DNA of 64,000 nucleotides from Heliocidaris erythrogramma (lineage: Eukaryota > Echinodermata > Echinoidea > Camarodonta > Echinometridae), in NCBI GenBank assembly GCA_025617745.1, contig CM046856.1, forward strand, positions 35,644,208 to 35,708,207, written 5' to 3'. The notes beneath the pieces are model-generated. The model ran no database searches and was not told the DNA's origin. It saw only the letters and a program-made list of their open reading frames with translations. The first letter of the stretch is position 1. Each line of letters begins with the position of its first letter. The translations under genes were made by a program, and so were the position numbers. Shown piece by piece: positions 45,669 to 60,100 of this stretch.

Positions 45669-45724
45669 ATTATGTACTTGGTCGTTTGAGAAAGGGAGGT
45701 TTAGATCTGTGAAAAAGGTTGATG

Positions 45725-46865
45725 AACAGAGAAAGAAAGAGAGAAGAGAGAGAGAGAGAGAGAAAATGATGGAGCACAGAGAGATTTACAAAGACACAGA
45801 AATGAAGATAAAACACAGAGGGAGAGAGAAAAGAAACAAACGGTAGAAAAAGATGGAGCACAGAGAGATATACAAAGACACAGAAATGCAGATAAAACAA
45901 AGAGAGAAAAGAAACAGTAGAAAAAGATGGAGCAGAGAGATACACAAAGACACTGAAATGAAGATAAAACAAAGTGAGAGAAAAGAAACAAATGGTAGAA
46001 AAAGATGGAGCAGAGAGATATATATAGAGATATATATAAAGACAGAAATGAAGACAAAACAAAGAGTGAGAGAAAAGAAACAAACAGTAGAAAATGATGG
46101 AGCAGAGAGATATACAAAGACACAGAAATGAAGATAAAACAAAGAGTGAGAGAAAAGAAACAAACGGTAGAAAATAATGGAGCAGAGAGATATACATAGA
46201 CACAGAAATGAAGATAAAACAAAGAGTGAGAGAAAAGAAACGAGGTAGAAAATGATGGAGCAGAGAGATATACAAAGACACAGAAATGAAGATAAAACAA
46301 AGAGTGAGAGAAAAGAAACAAAAGGTAGAAAATGATGGAGCAGAGAGATATACAAAGACACAGAAATGAAGATAAAACAAAGAGTGAGAGAAAAGAAACA
46401 AACGGTAGAAAAAGATGGAGCAGAGAGATATACATAGACACAGAAATGAAGATAAAACAAAGAGTGAGAGAAAAGAAACAAACGGTAGAAAATGATGGAG
46501 CAGAGAGATATACGAACACACAGAAATGAAGATAAAACAAAGAGTGAGAGAAAAGAAACAAACGGTAGAAAATGATGGAGCAGAGAGATATACATAGACA
46601 CAGAAATGAAGATAAAACAAAGAGTGAGAGAAAAGAAACAAACGGTAGAAAATGATGGAGCAGAGAGATATACAAAGACACAGAAATGAAGATAAAACAG
46701 AGTGAAAAGAAACAAACGGTAGAAAAAGATGGAGCACTGAGAGATATATACAAAGACAGAAATGAAGATAAAACAGAGAGGAGGAAAAAATTGAAATGGT
46801 GGTAGAAAAAATGGAAGCACCGAGAGATATACAAAGACACAGAAAAGGGGATAAAACAGAAAGAA
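45725..46865. repeat. 80-bp minisatellite, about 13-14 copies
   Basis: The unit on the + strand runs GATGGAGCAGAGAGATATAC, AAAGACACAGAAATGAAGAT, AAAACAAAGAGTGAGAGAAA, AGAAACAAACGGTAGAAAAT. Edges are degenerate (GA-rich). Because 80 is not a multiple of 3 and the minus strand lacks stops, three overlapping minus-strand frames of about 370-440 codons run across it. I regard these as non-coding. Confidence 0.9.
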
Positions 46866-47676
46866 AGGAAAGGGGATGGAGATAATGAACAAAAATAGTC
46901 ATGGCAAGTTCTATGTAACAATATGAGTGGCACACTTACATTATGAATCATACAAACACTTGCTGGTGTAGATGATAATAATAATAATAATGTAGCTTCT
47001 TTATTCAAAAGATAATCACACCAATAGCTCATGTGTCATTAAAATATCTGCTTTGCAAGCTATCATAACAGAATACAGAAACACAATGTCAAAATGTATT
47101 TTTTGTTTTTGTTTTGGCCAATCATTGGTAGTTTGTTGGTCAACAATAAACCAGCCCCCCATCCGCTTCGTGATGAATTAGTCAATTGTGTGAATCTCTT
47201 TTTCTCAGTTACATGATAAGATTTGAGAGACAACACTCTGTATATTGGTTTCTCTCTGTATTCCCTTTGGATTCAAAATAAATTCATGGTAAATGACAAA
47301 AAATATGTGTACATGTGTATTTCCCAGTCTTTCTTAACATCTTGTATCGGAAATAGATTTGTTAGGGGGACCTTCATGAAATTTACATGTATTTGTTATT
47401 CAACAGCGTAATGTATATCATAGCAAAAAGAGCCGGGCTCATTTGCATCCTCATTTACTTATACCAAGGTAAATGCTTTTCCCCTAAATGGACCAGGTTA
47501 TTTTGGTGATCTCAGTGCAGAGGAGGCTGTCCATAGGTCATGCGTCACAATCATGAAGCACTTCGAGCATTACACCCTCCTTTATGGAGTGACACACTCA
47601 AAAAAATGGCCATGGGTTCAGAGTTCATAGTTCAGAGGTCAGAATACACAGGTCATGCCTGCCTGCATGCACTAAG
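46866..47676 (-). other. Probable 3' UTR and downstream flank of MIC26/27
   Basis: No frame of note. On the minus strand an AATAAA lies at 46999-47004, about 670 nt after the stop, next to an ATT microsatellite (46975-46991). The stretch could be 3' UTR, which is inference. Confidence 0.35.
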
Positions 47677-50600
47677 CTAGCTCCTGGTGGTGTACATGTC
47701 CTTATCCTCTGGCTTAGACTGCCCGTGGTCCTCCTTGCTGGTGTCTGATGTGCTTTCCTCTGTCTTACCAGCATCTTCCGAACTGGAGGATTCTGCTTTT
47801 GTCTCTCCTTCTGTCTTCTTTTCAGTGGCAGCTACTTTTTCAACCTGTAAAAAGGAGATGACAATAACATTACAATAAATGTTTTTACATTACATTATTA
47901 CAGTAGGTAGAGGTGTTGTGGTCTCGAGGATAAGTCACCGGACTGCAGATCACACGTTACAGGGTTTGATTACCTGCCACGGCACTAACATACTTTGGCA
48001 AGACATTAATCTACATTTGCCACCATCCACCCGGGTGTAGTAAGTGGGTACCTGGTAGAATTTATTCCTTTAATGCACTGAGTGCTAAGGTTGCCATGCT
48101 AAAGCTGGGGTAATAATATGATTGCAGGGCCCTCAGGGATAACATTATTTTGTACTGATGAGGCTCTCTTGGATAAACATGACATTACTATAATTATTAT
48201 ATATATTTGTAATGATACATAAAAATGGCTTTGTAAATATTTTGTGTTACTTTCTTGTAAACTGACCCCTTTCAGCTGGTCAGTCTTTCTATACCAATAA
48301 ATAAATTTCAGATGTGGCTGGAACTCAGAACCTTCACATAACCTCTCATTGCCTAAATTTAAACATCTTTACAAATACTACAGGGTCAGTAAAAGAAAAA
48401 AATGGAATGGAATTCTGTATTTGAGGCATGTATCTTCTTTCTGCAGCTACCCTTGATGATTTGAACAGAATGAGGAAACAGTCTTACTTCATTCTCCAAT
48501 ATCGGGAACTCTGGAAAGAGCTAATCATAGTGCCCCCAACCATATCTCTAGGATCTAATTAGCAAGTTCACATCTTCGAGAAAAAAAAGAGTGTCGTAGG
48601 TTTCTAATATACACTAGTAATAATTCCCGCCAATGTCTAATCTAAATTCCCAAATCCACTTATTATAAAAAGTATCTCTTTATTTTGAATATAAATATTG
48701 ACATCCAGACTTACAGCTGGTGCTTTTGTATCTCCTTTGTAGAGGTCTGCGGCCTTGGTTTTAACCCATTCAATCTCAGCCTTGCCTATCTTAACTGCCT
48801 GGTATGGATAGCATAGTGAAGCGGTAGCTGTCATTAGACCACCAGAATACAGAGCCTTCCTGATGATGCCGCCTGTGCAGGAAGAAGAACGTGAAGATGG
48901 TACAGAGCAGATTTCACATGTGGAGGAGGTAATGTTCTGACATTTCGCAATGAGGTGTCAAAAGAGAGAAACAGATGGGAAGAAAGTCCAGTAGAGAAAA
49001 GCCACAGCAGCAAAACTTTGCATTTAAATGAATGAGAATCGATGCTTCATTAAAGAGAAGTAATATACTGCATTGTCTCCCAGTTTCAAAAACATATCTT
49101 TACCTACTAGCATCTGCTGTACCACCTCATGGCCCGATTCAAACTAATTTCAGATCACATCCCATTATTGCTCAACATACCTTTCCTTGCAAGTACTAGG
49201 CCAGCCAGACCAGCAATAGAGATGACCCCCGCCCTGGGGTAGAAACCTTCCTCTGTCTTGATGTACTTTACCACACCTGCGCAATGCATTAACAGAAATC
49301 AAATTTAAGTGAACAACATCAAACATGGGGGTAAGACAAGTGTTCCGTTCAAACAAACAGTACAAAGAATGTCCTTTTTATCTGACGCTAAAATCATGTT
49401 GCCCTATCCTTGAGAGGGATAGTCCACTTTTTAAAACATTAGCAATCAGAAAGTGTATGAACTGGACATACCACGTTAAAATGACACCATCATAATTTGT
49501 GAAATTGCATATACATGCCATTAGAATGATGGCGTATTACTTTCGTTAGAACTTGTTTCATACTTTGGATGTAGAGGTATAGATGCGAGGTACATTGTAC
49601 TTACTATGAGTCGTCTCTTCTGCTAATTTGTATGTTTTCTTTGTAAAACTGAAGGCTCCCTGAAGTATAAATATAAAAGAGGATAGAGTGAGAGAGACAG
49701 AGAGAGACAGAGAGAAACAGAGGGCTGCGGGGAGGATGTTACAAATATAAACATAATTATAAAATATAAATCTTAAAATCAATATGTGATTGAAAAGCTT
49801 TTCTGCAGGTCCCTTTTTTTCCCCAAAATCAAATATGAAAAAATACAATGAATCTATCAAATGATATCTCTTTACTACTCCCTGACATATCAAATCATTG
49901 GTAGTTATGAATTTGGCGATCCTTAGCTTTGGCTAATGCAAGTGTCATAATGATTTTCAGTGTATTAGCGTATAGACCCTGACAAATTATCTTAAAACTT
50001 TCATATTGCTTATCCCTAAAACTTATAACGCCTGGAATCTTCATCACTTACCTGGAAAGTATCTGAGAATTTCCAGACCTGCTCCCTGACCACAGTCACC
50101 ATGTCCCTCACAGCACTGGGTCCTTCTGGTATCAGTTGGTACTCTGTCTGCTTAGGCTCGCTGTATACTGGCAGGTCCTTAGGCTTCACCAGGCTAATGG
50201 ATGATGCGCCCATGTCTTCGGTGGCTGGGTTTTCTCCTGCTTTGACTTGGAGGAGGCCTAAACCCAACATGGGCATGGAACCATACCTCAATGCCACAAA
50301 TACCTGTGTATTTTTTTAGGAGAAAAAAAAACAACTTAGATATGTTTTTAATTTGTAAACAAATCTTTCGGCATATTACTAACTTACATATGTTTAACCT
50401 TTTGATTGAAAGAGGAGGGTTTTTTTATCTCACCTGCAAAAGTATAACTGAATTTTATCCTTTCAGATGCTGAGGTAACCACGATAATCAGAAGAAAAAC
50501 AAAATTCTGAGTCCACTTGACTGGATCTCAAGTCTTGAAGTTGATCCAGGTGGCTTATTTTTTTAATTTTTTTTTTTTAACCATGGATATGGTAGCCTGT

Positions 50601-51365
50601 AATCTTTTTCATTTGAAACAAAATCTTGATCTGGAGAATGTGGAATATTTTGTGCACACTCCTTTCTATGAATATTGTCGAAAGTCATTCCAGACTAATC
50701 TCATTTGTCATACAATACTCCATAAGACGATATCCCCGTCCTCGTACTCATAGTCTCATACTGTACAAAATTAATGCCATTATTAGGCTCTCCTTTTTTT
50801 CCTTCCCACTGAACCACCCGCCCCTCGCTTATCTGGCGCTGATGCGAAGAAAATCTCACGCATTTCTGGTCTTTCATTTAATAACAAATATAATAACAGT
50901 TAGTTAGACAGAAATAAACGTCTGTCATGGCCTGGGGAAATCTTTAATATTTCTGACATTTATCAATTCAAGAACCGATGTGTTGGCTCAGTCAGTAGAG
51001 CGTCCGCCTCACAATCGGGAGGTCGTGGGTTCGAACCTCGGCCGTGTCATACCAAAAGACGTTAAAAGATGGAGTTGCTGCTACCTTGTTTGGCGTTCAA
51101 CAATTGAAAGGATAGAGCAACGTAGATCTGGTGCACTGCACCTCAACAGTACGACAATACGCCTGACGGTGGACTGTACTGCAACTCAAAGAAAAAAAAA
51201 AGAACACCAAGTAACTTACTACGGTCCCACTCATTCAAAACGGTGTGCTATATCTGTATAGTCACATCTCTCATTTAATAAATTTCATTTCTCGTGCAAA
51301 AGAAAACATCAAACAGTGAACAAAATGTGTATGAAATTATTACATACCTGTCTAGACATTGCCAT
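47677..51365 (-). CDS. APOOL: MICOS complex subunit MIC26/MIC27 (apolipoprotein O family)
   Basis: Inner mitochondrial membrane protein of the MICOS complex, which shapes cristae junctions. Six exons on the minus strand: 51348-51365, 50052-50303, 49605-49659, 49181-49276, 48715-48872 and 47677-47844 (stop TAG at 47677-47679). They sum to 747 nt, 248 residues, with GT/AG borders and consistent phases. The start MAMSRQ lies in an 18-bp first coding exon. The N-terminal region reads VFVALRYGSMPMLGLGLLQV. The conserved core has LPVYSEPK and a first hydrophobic segment, PRAGVISIAGLAGLVLARKG. A second follows in ALYSGGLMTATASLCYPYQA. The tail is acidic and Lys/Ser-rich, ending DMYTTRS. Length suits MIC27 (about 268 in human) more than MIC26 (about 198), but I cannot separate the paralogues firmly. 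SINEs lie in introns 1 and 5. Confidence 0.88.
47905..48130 (+). repeat. tRNA-Leu-like SINE in MIC26/27 intron 5
   Basis: tRNA-like head (GTTGTGGTCTCGAGGATAAG, GGACTGCAGATC, GGGTTTGATTACC) and body GGGTACCTGGTAGAATTTAT shared with 25466-25606 and with 1421-1770. Antisense to the host gene. Confidence 0.65.
50976..51200 (+). repeat. tRNA-derived SINE in MIC26/27 intron 1
   Basis: The head has a near-consensus A box (TTGGCTCAGTCAGTAGAGCG), an anticodon-loop-like CTCACAA and a B box GGGTTCGAACC. A body with ACGTTAAAAGATGGAGTTGC and TTTGGCGTTCAACAATTGAA follows, then an A-rich tail at 51181-51205. This body is common in invertebrate tRNA SINEs. Antisense to the host gene. Confidence 0.8.
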
Positions 51366-53915
51366 GTTAGGTTAAAATAGCATAACATAGGTTTCTTGGA
51401 CTCAGTAGATCAAGATTCTTGAGAAAGATAATGATTAATGGAGCTGGAGGACAACTTGGGCAGTTTAACTAAAGTAAAACCAACGAACGTAGAGGGCGGC
51501 AACACTTTACAGTCTTGCTATATGAGGAAGGTTCACTTCGCTAAATTTCTGTGACCATCGTTTTCTCTCAGAGAGGTTTTTAGGTAGATTGTAGATTTGA
51601 TTTTTTTTCAATTTATACTTTCAAAAACATTTGAATTAAAATGTTAAAATAACATGTTATGTTCAATAATATTGTTTAATGATTTTTATAATTTTCAAGA
51701 GAAAAAAGATTAAAATGGTTATAAATTTATCATTTTACTTTACTATACAATAATATGTATTTGTGAGGTTGCTAACGTTTTCCTGCTATATTTCGCTGCT
51801 ACTGCACTGTATTTCGATTTCGATCCATGTCCGTACCCACAGAACTCCGTACCGTGTGCATACCGTGTACATTATTGCTACATAATTATACAGTTCTCTC
51901 TCTCGATCTGACCGCCTAAGTAGATTCAGAGTCAGAGCTCGACGATGGATCAATTTCAAGGTTTGATTTTAGTTATAAATTTAGATTAACTTATTTGAAT
52001 GACGATGAAACAAATTTGGCAATCCAGGGTAATAAAATAGAGAGAGCTGTTAGTATGCATGTAACGTTAATTTGTTAAAACTTAAATTAAAAAAAAAATT
52101 GTTCGGATGCTGGATGGAGCGATGATGATCATGATGATGCCTGATGGATGGGGGGTCAGATTCGGATGACCGGACACTTAACAAAAATGAAAAATAAGGT
52201 GGCTGGGACATAAGGAATTCTTGCCGTGATAATCATAATCGATATATTTTTCTATAAATAATATCGGGCAAACCCACAAACTAGGGGCAGGTCGGCGTGC
52301 GCGTGCCATGTTTTACAGTGCGGAGATCGGCAGAGGCAAAAATGAACACATGTATTACAAGTTCATAATCAAGTTTAAAACAACTTCCAAATATATTTTA
52401 AATCAAGTTCAAAACAACTTCCAAATATATTTTAAATCAAGTAATTAATGCTGTCATCATAATCATATTGTCCTCTTGGCTTTCAGATTTGTAGTTGTTT
52501 GATGAAAATCTTAACGATTTTGGCCAGAAATGGAGTCAAACTCGCAAATGTTTCATCGCTGAATCTGGTACAAGTACAAGATCGCCGCCGCCGCCGCCGC
52601 TGGGCAACATTTGCTTGCACACAAATGAATACAGCACGCGCAGACCGGCCCTATTCTCCGGGTTTGCCTAATAATATGGTCTAAGTTAGATCAAAATAGG
52701 CCTAACTTAGGCCTAACATTAACAAAGTTAGGCCCTAACGTTAATCATAATGATAATTGTATTTGTAACTTGTAACTTTTCACAAACTTGAGACAAGGTC
52801 AAACTCAAAGGCAAGCATGATGATGTTTTATTTTTTTTAATTTCCAGAGAGAGAGAGAGAGAGGGGGGGGGGGGGGGGGGGGGGGGTTCACATTTAGTCT
52901 TGATTCTACTATTTGTAGACCAGAATCAAAGCACTTTTAATGAGAGGTAATAATACATCTCCACAGAGTAATATATCATATGGATGGCCTTTGTTGTTTC
53001 ACTCAGTGACTTTCAGTAATCACATTCATTAGTCTCATGTTGACTTTGATTGCCCTCAGATAAACTTGGCAAGGAACTAACTTGTGGCTGATCTACTTGA
53101 AGATCTAATGGAGCCTAATGTTAGAGGTCTACATAACTCAACAACTGTTGGAGGTGCCGGATGAAGCGGAAAGTCCTACTATAAAAGACTTTGATGAGAC
53201 GTGAGAAATAAACAGGTAGGTCTAGACCTAACTAGTTGGACCTAGACTTAATAATACCAAGGAGTTACCACAGGGTATTACAGCTAAAAATTATAGGTCT
53301 GGTAATGGTAGTGGATCCAGAATCGGTTTACTTGGATGGGGGGGGGGGGGAGTTTTTAGTTTACATTGTCCAATCAGAACAGCAACAACAACAAAAGAAT
53401 TCTGAGAGAATGGACATTTCATTTGTCCTTTTCCTTTATCCACCACTGAGATCTGTTTTCTTCAGTGTAATATTAAATTAGCTGTTTTAGTGTCTTTAAA
53501 AATCAATTGAGATCTTTAGGGAATGTTCAGTGTGATGTCAGTATAAATAGAATTTTAAGTCCCCCTTAATTATTATATTAAACATTTCATTAATTAATGC
53601 AAACAGAAACAAAACAAAATAAGATGGGTGAATACATTACACTTTTATTAAAATCCACAAATATTTTAGGATGGATTGTACATGCAGTTAGTATTTATCC
53701 TCTTTGAAAAGATCACGAGGGTGAGGATGAGCGTATCTCTTTTTTTTTTCTTAATACATAATAATGCTCTACACGACTCTCCATCTATTTTACAGATGAT
53801 GATGAAGATGAAGGCGTGCCGCTGAGAATGAAGACAAATTCTGAGAGGAACAAATAAATACTTAGCTGCTCCAGTTTTGCATGGTAGGTCTAAGCTGTAA
53901 GAGTAAGATTGCTAT

Positions 53916-54106
53916 CAGGGGTGTTGATCCGTTTTCGGAATGGGGGGGGGGGGGGGGGCAAAACAGCCTAATAGTACTCTATATGATTTTTTCAACGCCT
54001 TAATTAATTACCAGCTTATCCACGGTTACAGCGGGGGGGGGGGGCAGAATGATATATTTGCCCTCTCAATACTATCAGAGGGGGGATGCATAATCGACGC
54101 CCCTGG
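53916..54106. repeat. Short repeat with AGGGG(T/C)GT ends inside the 5.6-kb block
   Basis: Left CAGGGGTGTTGATCC and right GACGCCCCTGG are roughly inverted. Two poly-G runs lie inside. Confidence 0.35.
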
Positions 54107-55751
54107 TTGTTATTAGTACCTCAATACAATCTAGGTACACATATTTTTTTCACATAAACATACCAACTGAATTTTCTTGAGACTTTACTAATTTGGTTGC
54201 TTTTGAATAGCCTTGAAAATTTTATGTGTCCAACTTTTTCCTCTTTAAATACTTTTGAGAATTCACACTTATTATTCCATTAATAGGAAGCTCGAAGTTT
54301 CAGGGTTTTATTTTAATTCTAATTGTTGCTTGTTTAATTATCAAATACACAATGGATGCTATTTTCTAAAATCTTTCCTCTTTTCGTTCGACAGATTTGG
54401 ATTTCTACTTCAGCTCTTCTGTAAAATAGCCCCCTGCTTTGATCAACATGTATCTCTTCTGGGTCCGCTCGCTATGCAAAAGGACAGCTATTCAAAGAAA
54501 ACCACTATATTCATTTAACACAAGTTATGAATAGCAGTTCTTATGAATAGTTATGAATAATGGTAATTTGTCTATTTAGAAGGACTGCTATTCATTTAGT
54601 CACGCATTATGAATAAGCGGTCCTTATGAATGTTGTAGTCACATGCAGCCATTTTGTTATAGTAGCTCGTTATTGTGAGGAGGTCTTCCTCTTCTGTGTG
54701 GTCTATATAGTGAGATTACAGGGCCCCTAAATGATATTAAGATAAGCACTGCCATGCAGGGCCACTCCTTTATTAAATCTGCCCGCAGTGTATCACAAAC
54801 TAATAATCTTATCTGATTCTATGAATTTATAAATTATTAAGTAAATTATTATTTTATTCATTATCTACTGAGAAAATCCATACTATTCAGCACTTCATTT
54901 GACTTGAAACTATCTAATTAGATCTCTATGTGTGTTCCTCCTGCCCCTTTTTTATAGTTAGATTTATAATAATAGTAACATGCAATATACATGTACCAAC
55001 CTAAAAGGAGATGGATCATTTAAAGAGTTCTTACAACTGTCAAAATTATCTTTGTTTTTTAGGAGTAAAATTGTTGTCATTGGTGTGTGTTGAACAGAAA
55101 TTAGATGGTCATTCATTTCTTAAGTCATTTCTTCTTTGTTGGGGTGTAGTGGGTAAATAATCTTTAAATTGTAATTCAAATAATTTACTTCTTGGAAAGG
55201 GATTGAAATTAATAACGTATGATTCATTTAGATTGAAATTCTTTTTTTTTTAATGCATGTACATAATTTGTACTAAGAGAATATTATTTGACCTTGACAA
55301 GTCGGCTGTGATGGAACTATATTGTATTGTAGTATATGAAAAAAGTGTATGACTGCAGATGAATTATATAAATTATGTTGGATTTTTTAAAGGAGAAGAA
55401 GTAAACGTGTATTTAAGAAGTAAGACAATGTCGAAACTTCTCTAAAAACTCCTCGTTTCTGCATGCAAGAAAATATTCATTAAAAAGTAAAAAAATATAA
55501 ACGTATTTCTGAATCGACGTGTATAAACTATTGTACCTTAAATCTTGATTGTGAGAAAGATATACATGTAATTGAAAATTATTCTGTGAACATGATAAAG
55601 GTCCTTTCACATTATATCAATGAAATGAACCATATAGGGGAGGGGTGAATGAACCAGGACGTGTGATCATGGTGTATGTATGAGATAGAGAGGGAAGAAA
55701 AAAAGATGAGAAAAGGCGAAACTGAGAAGATATGGTGAAAAGGAAAGAGAG

Positions 55752-56048
55752 GAGGGGCTGATCCAGAGGGGCACTTCTGGCCCCTGCCCCCCCCCCCCCC
55801 CGTTTGGAAGAAAAGTATGCATTTTGTGCCCCCTTTTAAAATGAAGACCTTTTTTCTATTTCTTTTTTTTTTTTTTTTTTTGCTTGTCAGCAAATTATGG
55901 AGGGGAAACTGGACCCCCATAACCCCCCCCCCCCCCCCCCCACTGAGCAAATTTTGAAGGTCTGGCGAGACCAACAAAATATGGGTCTACCTTGACAAAT
56001 CTTCATTTGTGTGCCCCCTCTTATACTCAATCCTGGATCCGCCCCTGG
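55752..56048. mobile_element. 297-bp MITE-like repeat inside the 5.6-kb block
   Basis: Ends GAGGGGCTGATCCAG and CTGGATCCGCCCCTGG are imperfect inverted copies. It holds two long poly-C runs and a poly-T run. Confidence 0.45.
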
Positions 56049-57143
56049 GTGAGGTCTGAATAGAAGTGGTGGCGATGTCAAATTAAATTTAGCTTAACCC
56101 CCCCCCCCCCTCTAAAAATAATAACAATGAAATAGGTTAATAAATGAATATATACATACATAAATACACACCTAATAATAATATTGATTATTAATTAATT
56201 TAAAAAAAAAATATTTGAATAAATGAATAAAAAATAATACAAAAAATAAATCATAAATAACCAAAAATTAATGAATAGAATTATTTAAAACTTTTTAATA
56301 AAAGATAATATGAATTGAATTCATGTCGAAATTTCCAATTCCCAATTAAATTCCCTGCAGCAAGAATCACTGGTTTTGCCTTTAACGTTGGTGTTGTTGC
56401 TGTTTGTTTTTTTGTTTTTTGTTTTTTTTTTGTTTTATGAATGTGTTTAGCCGTTATCATAAATTATGAAATATTCATATCCTGACAGCACAGCTATATA
56501 TACGTCCTCGGGCACGTCCAGTGCAGCGAGAGGGTATGACGCTCGGTACCTTTCCCTCGCCTTGCCCAGCCGCCTACGCTGACGCTAGCTAGACTGTATA
56601 CCGTTAGCAAGCTCAGCAGACGACGCATTCATTGATACAGCATTTAGATGGATCAGCGAATGGATTTTATTTAATTTCAGCAGTACGCCCGCAGCGGGAG
56701 AGAGGTTACCCCTATCCCGAAATGCATTGCGAGTGGTCACAAAATCAGCTTGCCGAAAACGTCATGAATTTAGCACACTGGTACAATCACTGATCACAAA
56801 GGTGCCTATTTACGATCAGATTATAGATTATAGAAATAACATTTACACGGTATCATGAATAGAATAATGTTTCAAATAATTTATTCTTTCATTATACATT
56901 TTTTTTTAAATCTGCATCTATTCATAGTATCTCCTTTTGTCTTCATGTCGCTATCAATCCGTCATTGTATTACTTCGATTTATGGTTTTGTTGGCATGCC
57001 TACCAAAATGTGCGCGCACTTCAACTGCATGCGCGTAAGAAGTGAACCTTCCTCATAGCAAGACTGCAAAGTGTTGCCGCCCTCTACGTGCGTTGGTAAA
57101 ACCTAGCTGGCGCTCTTCACTTTCGTTGCAGATACGATTCAAG

Positions 57144-60100
57144 ATGGCAGCGCCCGGTGCTCTAGTCAACAAAAAGCGTCGAGAATTCATGAACATGCCC
57201 GCTCCATTGGGCTATGTTCCTGGGTTAGGTCGAGGGTAAGTACATCTGCCTACCATATGTATTTGTAACTTTTTAAGACTTAACTTAGTTCTGTCGAGTG
57301 CAGTGCCAGTGCTGTGTGTGTATTTGCGTGTATTATTATAACTCCACTCGACTCTCCAGGGAGTCAAGGAACTGAGGGAGGAAGCTAAGCGCCGCCGGCG
57401 CCGGCTAGCCAGGATTAGCTTCGTGAGTGTAAAAAAAAAAGAAAATTGGCTATAGGGCCTACGCCTTTTACATCACGAAGCCAGGGGGTCGTTTCATCAA
57501 ATCAACTCCATGATGACAGTCATAAGACATAACTGTTGTGGGCGATCTACGGAAATGTCATGGACCATGTGGACCTGAAAAAATGTTTCACAAACTGACA
57601 AAGACATGAATTGATAAACGACAACTCCGTGATATCGATACTCATCGGCGAAAAAACATAGTCTATATCACAATCCATTGGAATTATCGTCAATTACCCA
57701 AACAGATTTTGAGGCTCATTTTTCCCCAAAGTATTCCAAAATGGAAAAAATGGCAGCGAAGATGAATGCTTGTGATACAAACATCCCGTTTACATGAAAA
57801 GATGTGTTTCTTATGCCTTTTATGGCATCTTAGAATTTATAAAATTGAGAAAACTCGAGGAGGCTTTTGCCATGTACGAATCTAGATTTGTAGGTAAGAG
57901 GATACCGTAATTGACTAATTACGGAATTAAGACCCAAATCGTGTTCATTTTAGAGAAAATGATTAAATTAAGATATCTTATTGCCCAATTTTAAATATTT
58001 ATTCATTAAAAGATACATATAATATCATTAATATCAAAGCATTGCGTGAAAAAAAAAAAAAAAACGAAAATACATACATGATAAATTGTCGTTGTTCACA
58101 TGGGTCTGTATATACAGACTGTTCCGTTTTCGATGCTGATTCTATGGAAGACGGATGTGGGTATTTTTAATATTAATCTCATTTACTTGTTGGGGGGTCA
58201 AGAAGCCATAAGAACATATTGTTGGTCTGTACAATATTATAATACGGACATTAGTAATACTATCTGGTAAAGGAGTGATAAAGGATAGTGCTTGGAGATC
58301 AGGAAATAAATGTTCTCTTAATTTACATTTGTTATTTTTTTCGCAGCCCATAGACTAACTAAAAGCTGGCTTGTGATGGCGTTCTAAAAAGATATGACAG
58401 GTCTGGAGTACCGACAAGTCACTTGTCAGCGAAGTTGTCGCTGGTCTTGGCAAAGACGGCTTTGTGAAACACTTAGCGGACAAGTTGAGCGACAGTGTCG
58501 AGATGTCGCTGATCTTGTCGTTATGATGGTTTGATGAAACGACCCCCAGGCGTTTTTCCCCAGCAATCTAAATGCGCACGGGTTGGCAGGACATCGAAAA
58601 TGCCCTGAAATAACACTTTTCTGATAACTCCCGCGACCGACAGTCCCTTCCCCACAGCGTTTCCTCCTAGAGAAACTTTTTGAATTAGTAATAGTATGTG
58701 TTTTTGATCGTACATATTTTTCCAAAAATTCAAAAAAAAGAGCATAAGAAATTTCCGAGAACTCACCAGTGTTTGTGTATCCATGCCTCCTCTTGTCATG
58801 CAGATATAAAATGGCGGCTGCGTGCGACGGCGCGCGCTGTCGGCGACGTATAGTTTCAATTATGGTTGTATCGCGCGCCGTCGCACGCAGCCGCCATTTT
58901 ATATCGCATTTAACTTTGCCATCAATGGTAACTCCCATGGAAACCTTGATTTTGATTGGCCGTTGAGTGATGGTACCATGGTAGTTACTATTAATGGTAA
59001 GTTTTATGCAACGGGGCCTAGGCCTGATGTTTCCCAAGTTATCTCCTAAGTTCTTTCTATGATATTTTTTTTTATAATTCTAATGGTTCCACAAGGTCTA
59101 TAAAATATTTTTAAAGATAAACCAACTCTTGCCCACAGGCGAAGGAGGGGTGATGTGATTGATGCTTTCAAGTATTTGACGGGAGTGTATGACACTCAAC
59201 ACAATCTTTTTCACTTGGCACACAGGAGGTCCAGAGGCCACAAAATGAAACTGGACAAACAGTATTCTTGGCTTGATTTGAGGAGACATTTTTTCAGCAA
59301 CACAATTGTGGATTTGTGGAATAGTCTCCCTGAATATGTTCTCTCAGCAACTTCTGTAAACTGCTTTAAGAATAGACTAGATAAATACTGCTCTAAAAAC
59401 TATGATTTCGTTTACGAGCCAGTATAGGCTGTATGAGTCAATATCTTCCACACATTTTTGTCCTTTCCCACGCATATTCAACTTGGTATGGCAGGTTATG
59501 GAAAATGTATAATCACATGATACAACAAGCTACGATCGATGAACAGGCATTCGTCCTATATCATCGTGGGATTAAAGTAAAGTAAGAAAAAGTCATTTCA
59601 CATAATCTGTTGTTTTTCATTTCTTTCTTCTTTTACAGAGCAACTGGATTTACAACTCGATCTGATATTGGTCCAGCCAGGGAAGCAAATGACATAAGGT
59701 AAGCACATATGCAGAAGAAAGATCTCTGTGTAAGATATAATGGAAATAAACAAGACCATCAACTTTTAGGTATTGTTTGAATTTGTATTTATGTCAGGCA
59801 TAAATGCATGAAAACATTTGTTCAAATGACCTTGTCCTTGCAACTGTGTAATGGGCAGTTGACCTGAGAATGGAATAAACAAAAGAAATTAGACAATTCA
59901 AAATAAAATAATAATAAATACGACGGTTTCTTATAAATTGCTTTACCAGGAACAACTGACCAATGTGCTTGTAGTATTATTATTACCCCAGTCACTGGAT
60001 TCAATTACTATTCTGCTCATTACAGTGCACATTCTCCACTCCCTGGGGAGCATTCCAGCTTTTTTTCACGGGCCTACGCATGATCCAAAATTTATATTTC

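Follow-up and report, generated by a model that had tools for sequence, protein, structure and literature searches.

The Drosophila P element, described as having terminal inverted repeats (TIRs), a transposase with THAP and RNase H domains and 8-bp target duplications, often inserts around promoters (PMC7776569). In Anopheles gambiae, both the P elements and the miniature inverted-repeat transposable elements related to them (P-MITEs; 5 to 310 copies) lean towards the 5' sides of genes (PMC1562414). Here we consider a 64,000-nucleotide stretch of the sea urchin Heliocidaris erythrogramma (the window; C4:35644208-35708207 of the 1.06-Gb genome searched, G000), in which a 5.6-kb block lies between the starts of two divergently transcribed genes, PRPF6 and MIC26/27. 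We hold, with a probability of roughly 0.93, that this block is a copy of a large, non-coding P-superfamily DNA transposon present in the genome in high numbers. Because P elements favour the 5' ends of genes, it is unsurprising to find one inserted between two gene starts.

The resemblance to described P-superfamily elements is clear in outline and partial in detail. Like the window family, A. gambiae P-MITEs are non-coding, with P-type ends, 8-bp duplications, and ends related to a P element of the same genome around an unrelated interior; they are described as 205-2,450 bp long, as against 5.5-7.5 kb for each of the 20 paired copies measured here (PMC1562414). The features listed above for the Drosophila P element recur in the sea urchin family, but the TIRs are here 57 bp long, and the transposase-bearing copies reach 14.5 and 17.5 kb (PMC7776569). 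Subterminal inverted repeats of the P superfamily measure 11 bp in Drosophila and 12 bp in zebrafish; no clear counterpart emerged from the terminal 700 bp on either side of the window copy, which share, A-rich runs aside, no word longer than 10 bp. Galileo, also of the P superfamily, makes 7- or 8-bp duplications and has a GT...AC target, GTATTAC, close to the GTAAAAC seen here, but its duplications are mostly of 7 bp, whereas ours are mostly of 8 bp, and its TIRs are long and foldback-like (PMC4168063). The zebrafish Pdre2 / THAP9 element shares a THAP9-type transposase, 8-bp duplications and internally deleted relatives, and differs in its 13-bp TIRs of another sequence (PMC10983969). Izanagi, in the medaka dmrt1bY promoter, is likewise P-like and non-autonomous, with a target duplication of 8 bp; it is another element in another host and has degenerate THAP exons, and the promoter location in our case is a putative one (PMC2820524).

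The first-pass annotation had read the block as a TIR-flanked transposon insertion separating two divergently transcribed gene starts, and had hung that reading on a genome search for further copies. Such copies are abundant: a 25-mer of the TIR occurs exactly at 429 genomic places (214 forward, 215 reverse) as against none for the reversed pattern, so this abundance is not due to chance, and assuming two ends per copy the family would number roughly 200. These ends, together with a shared interior and target duplications, bear the reading out. Among 100 listed TIR places, which cover C1 to C5:24.6 Mb, 78 make 39 convergent pairs spanning 66 bp to 23 kb, with 23 of the 39 falling at 5-8 kb. 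Queries with a 71-base left end and with the right end gave at least 41 and 40 matches, respectively (40 of 603 first-look candidates were scored for the former, and 40 of 607 for the latter). Across 20 loci picked by left-end match, the window element aligns in long blocks over most of the fetched length in 18, mainly at 84-98%, and only partially in two, over ~0.6 kb in L018 and ~2 kb in L022.

Within the window, positions 51479-51521 and 57055-57097 are inverted and 95% complementary, and head the inverted-repeat list for the region. Along its full length, the TIR shows two substitutions and a 2-bp insertion between the left and right ends, exactly as the first-pass annotation had counted; the 58-bp sequence that it placed in front of both genes is the two TIRs of one element. 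The copy has about 36% G+C and a longest stop-to-stop frame of 124 aa, and the six of its frames scanned against Pfam gave nothing or chance-level matches. In 19 other paired copies, no frame in the fetched pieces exceeds 195 aa, and the 195-aa frame itself, in L041, is of low complexity. As neither the window copy nor these 19 contain a longer frame, we read the former as non-autonomous. Compared with the majority sequence, it differs at 5 of 300 inner positions on the left and 8 of 300 on the right, near the medians of 5 and 5 for the aligned copies (among which one aberrant right-end row has 102 differences). Each window TIR carries one substitution, and the left one has the 2-bp insertion besides; most sampled copies show fewer changes: 22 other left TIRs, selected by match, have no substitution, and 19 other right TIRs have 0 or 1 each. 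Given inner differences near the median and TIR changes above most copies, the window copy is a typical family member without unusual conservation.

The target duplications fix the tips of the element. We examined 36 end pairs, made up of 20 paired copies (the window's included), 10 pairs chosen by place, three TIR-only palindromes and three long copies, and found an exact 8-bp duplication in 29; the other seven comprise three exact duplications of 7 bp, one of 8 bp with a single mismatch, one of 12 bp, and two that are not clean. Among the 20 paired copies, 16 have exactly 8 bp duplicated outside CAACG...CGTTG, the exceptions being L013 (7 of 8 letters alike), L019 (an apparent 12 bp; L019/L032, on C12), L023 (none) and the window copy (7 bp). 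Most of these 20 were found with a query containing the TAAAA of the window flank, which biases their targets towards AAAC-rich sequence. The 10 pairs chosen by place come from C1-C3 and from the listed TIR places, at 4.8-7.5 kb (very short or long pairs, and one already counted, were omitted); nine have an exact 8-bp duplication, and the tenth, L069, an apparent 1-bp indel. Their left duplications have G at the first position in 7/10 and T at the second in 9/10, followed by four variable positions, A in 6/10 and C in 7/10. The three palindromes have duplications of 7, 7 and 8 bp, the first two sharing their flanks and perhaps representing one event, and the three long copies have 8 bp each. 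From the duplication lengths across the 36 pairs, the tips of the element are CAACG and CGTTG, and the outermost C/G is part of the target. The first-pass annotation was therefore slightly off with its 5-bp duplication and CCAACG ends: the TAAAA that it noted on both sides is indeed there, but as part of the longer direct repeat GTAAAAC.

Empty sites, which the first-pass annotation had also asked for, were found in clean form for other copies. L027 is nested in the right end of another copy, and its joined flanks match window positions 56890-57089 over 200 nt, ungapped, at 99%, and they match many further right ends among the fetched loci at 95-99%. For L024, joining the flanks gives a sequence that aligns with a flank of L013 for 102 nt, ungapped, at 94%. 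The window's own joined flanks had no empty-site match among the fetched loci, as expected for single-copy sequence.

What places the family in the P superfamily is the content of its larger relatives. The genome holds 29 matches to the P-transposase RNase H domain. One lies in a 14,463-bp copy on C13 (12529393-12543855; locus L018) with the family left end, the family right end and GTTTAAAC as an exact 8-bp duplication on both outer sides; its interior diverges from that of other copies after about 0.7 kb. The N- and C-parts of its RNase H domain are in phase, each in an 881-aa open frame, and a THAP domain is spread over two frames on the element's strand: L018:8665-8901 (profile 1-31, E=0.016, below the Pfam cut-off) and L018:9434-9667 (profile 32-85, E=2.2e-5, above it). 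These two pieces would join the catalytic frame. Between them, L018:8920-9089 resembles more than 25 other places at ~69-77%, and is probably another repeat nested in an intron. A second copy, of 17,458 bp on C7 (24406403-24423860), has GTGCAAAT on both outer sides (exact 8 bp), encloses P matches and is collinear with the C13 copy, at 94-99% over the matched pieces; since their duplications differ, the two are separate insertions. Thus, a P-type transposase with both RNase H parts lies between family ends in the C13 and C7 copies, and the window copy is without one. The one P RNase H match that falls inside a listed TIR pair, C4:26372807-26373250, belongs to a third long copy, C4:26365677-26382555, which is bounded by a left-type and a right-type end and flanked on each side by GTATATAC. 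Because same-ended copies with exact 8-bp duplications enclose P-transposase matches, we assign the window element to the P superfamily as what appears to be a large non-autonomous member. The first-pass annotation knew of no described family with such ends; a literature search that used no TIR text and left out Repbase and Dfam turned up none either, and the same-ended copies now supply a P-superfamily affiliation.

We posit that the transposase of such larger relatives would act in trans on the non-autonomous copies, as the relatedness of the ends suggests, and that one copy would have been pasted between the closely spaced starts of PRPF6 and MIC26/27, with duplication of a 7-8-bp target. 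A high-copy, 5.5-7.5-kb non-coding repeat would thereby be linked to its likely transposase source in the same genome. With the block's identity settled, the insertion fits the known habit of P elements of landing near gene starts (PMC7776569, PMC1562414).

Several observations weigh against this assignment. The window duplication has 7 bp and not 8, and, over all the pairs, 7/36 depart from an exact 8 bp; no copy was observed moving. The first THAP piece ties with the unrelated CoA_binding_3 at an equal E-value. The P match in the third long copy scores below those of the C13 and C7 copies and has no RNase H C-part, so it could belong to a nested, unrelated P element, and in the C13 and C7 copies, known from their ends and matched pieces, some nesting is conceivable. 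Finally, the non-autonomous type shares only ~0.6-0.75 kb of its left end, and its right end, with the C13 copy, its interior being of other origin.

Could the block be a non-autonomous hAT element instead? Its CAACG tip fits YARNG, a motif of hAT tips, and the genome contains 76 matches to the hAT dimerisation domain. The 8-bp duplication fits as well (PMC3942097), as does the leaning towards T and A at duplication positions 2 and 7, given the hAT target nTnnnnAn (PMC10368747). YARNG is, for its part, given as a tip motif of P elements (PMC2820524), and the combination of an 8-bp duplication with an nTnnnnAn-like target, found in the 10 place-chosen pairs, is not specific to hAT. Between C1 and C5:24.6 Mb, the 39 TIR pairs contain none of 25 hAT matches (the remaining 51 of 76 lie outside the compared part) and one of 10 P matches, and P matches also lie within the C13 and C7 copies. 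The hAT identity, which we now regard as very unlikely, was dropped once P-transposase matches had been found inside same-ended copies. It is more improbable still, to the point of being scarcely credible, that no mobile block was involved and that a promoter fragment was duplicated in inverted orientation, or that two short insertions occurred separately. The inverted 58-bp copies, taken alone, are compatible with a fragment duplication, but the interior is common to many copies, a direct repeat stands exactly at the tips, and other copies have clean empty sites; with the 429 ends, these refute both readings.

Returning to the P-superfamily insertion, Table 1 sets out its features alongside those of the two flanking genes.

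Table 1. The insertion and the adjoining gene starts (window positions)
Feature	Position	Strand	Remarks
MIC26/27 (ApoO-like) proposed start and first codons	51353..51365	-	read from sequence
Target site duplication, left copy GTAAAAC	51474..51480	+	7 bp; 8 bp usual in family
Probable non-autonomous P-superfamily transposon copy	51481..57095	.	5,615 bp; no long reading frame; bounds from end comparison
Left TIR	51481..51539	+	59 bp in the window copy (2-bp insertion) vs 57 bp in the family; 23 left ends aligned
Right TIR	57039..57095	-	57 bp; 20 right ends aligned
Target site duplication, right copy GTAAAAC	57096..57102	+	direct repeat at outer tip
Initiator-like TCACTTT (YYANWYY)	57117..57123	+	outside element; chance match possible
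TISU-like start context CAAGATGGCAGC	57140..57151	+	11/12 vs SAASATGGCGGC (PMC9658832); outside element
PRPF6 first coding exon	57144..57236	+	phmmer to human Prp6, E=5.8e-6

Both gene names given in the first-pass annotation hold: PRPF6 through its match to human Prp6, and MIC26/27 through two minus-strand frames, 49158-49298 and 48640-48957, that match ApoO (E=4.9e-7 and 3.6e-4). At 30.1 and 20.9 bits, both ApoO matches fall under the Pfam cut-off of 31.4, and their profile positions adjoin (56-88 and 86-127); a third frame, 50016-50315, had no Pfam match. The two ATGs, at 51365 and 57144, were read from the sequence. Removal of the element and one duplication leaves an ATG-to-ATG gap of 156 bp, which may have served as one shared promoter. 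Today, the distance from the nearer TIR to the ATG is 48 bp for PRPF6 and 115 bp for MIC26/27, with 41 bp and 108 bp, respectively, of gene-proximal sequence outside the duplication. The simplest outcome would be a neutral one, in which each gene retained the sequence nearest its own start, and PRPF6 and MIC26/27 would no longer share one short interval. Such a locus is a natural experiment on the effect of separating two close divergent gene starts by 5.6 kb.

Have the ends of the element themselves become promoters? That both TIRs were co-opted as proximal promoters of the adjacent genes after the split is, in our view, unlikely. Each does sit just upstream of a gene start, and the TIR words GGGCGG and AGGAAG resemble GC-box and ETS sites. 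YYANWYY is the initiator motif, and the match to it outside the element gives a candidate PRPF6 transcript start (the +1 A) at 57119, 25 bp upstream of the ATG and with the right TIR at -24 to -80. Another non-autonomous P-like element, Izanagi, sits in a medaka sex gene's promoter (PMC2820524). However, the same TIR is found in other copies wherever they landed, so its presence here is uninformative on function, and the substitution in each window TIR, set against the other left and right TIRs, gives no sign of constraint. PRPF6 moreover has a start context resembling the translation initiator of short 5' untranslated regions (TISU), as well as the initiator match, outside the element; PRPF6 therefore need not use the element for its transcript start. 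TISU is described in mammals, where it lies within 30 nt downstream of transcript starts and gives translation with a median 5' untranslated region of 12 nt (PMC2518114); the consensus, being mammalian, may not apply in this host, and the Ala-Ala start (ATGGCAGC) partly explains the 11/12 match. Taken together, this argues, without proving it, that the PRPF6 transcript starts outside the element and that its 5' untranslated region need not contain element sequence. The fuller scenario, in which one P-superfamily insertion turned a shared promoter into two, so that a divergent pair of housekeeping genes would have the same regulatory sequence, the element's mirror-image ends, as proximal promoters, strikes us as slightly more doubtful again.

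Further variants of the family, and another P family, emerged from the genome searches. The TIR-only palindromes, L049 (C4:40884668-40884733), L050 (C2:71598053-71598118) and L051 (C3:39321273-39321360), measure 66, 66 and 88 bp, are flanked by target duplications and, in the 66-bp form, have ~31-bp arms; they may be remnants of internal deletion or excision, or minimal elements. L065-L066 (C2:33494734-33500827) has a normal left end and an 8-bp duplication, and a right end that departs from the family after ~40 bp of TIR. Eight P RNase H matches of the same score, each in an 869-aa open frame (C1:78463571, C3:8273743, C3:47690009, C7:17676387, C8:46532096, C9:45771606, C16:40936546 and C17:9191324), look like a different P family of apparently recent activity; a ninth match of equal score, C10:32064296, has 532 aa. 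Elsewhere in the window, positions 50977-51049, with the proposed MIC26/27 start on one side and the 50016-50315 frame on the other, are tRNA-like (Rfam tRNA, 31.7 bits; not called by ARAGORN) and perhaps represent a tRNA-derived short interspersed nuclear element. Long overlapping minus-strand frames at 45670-47035 lie in strongly repetitive sequence, and a tandem repeat is more likely there than a gene.

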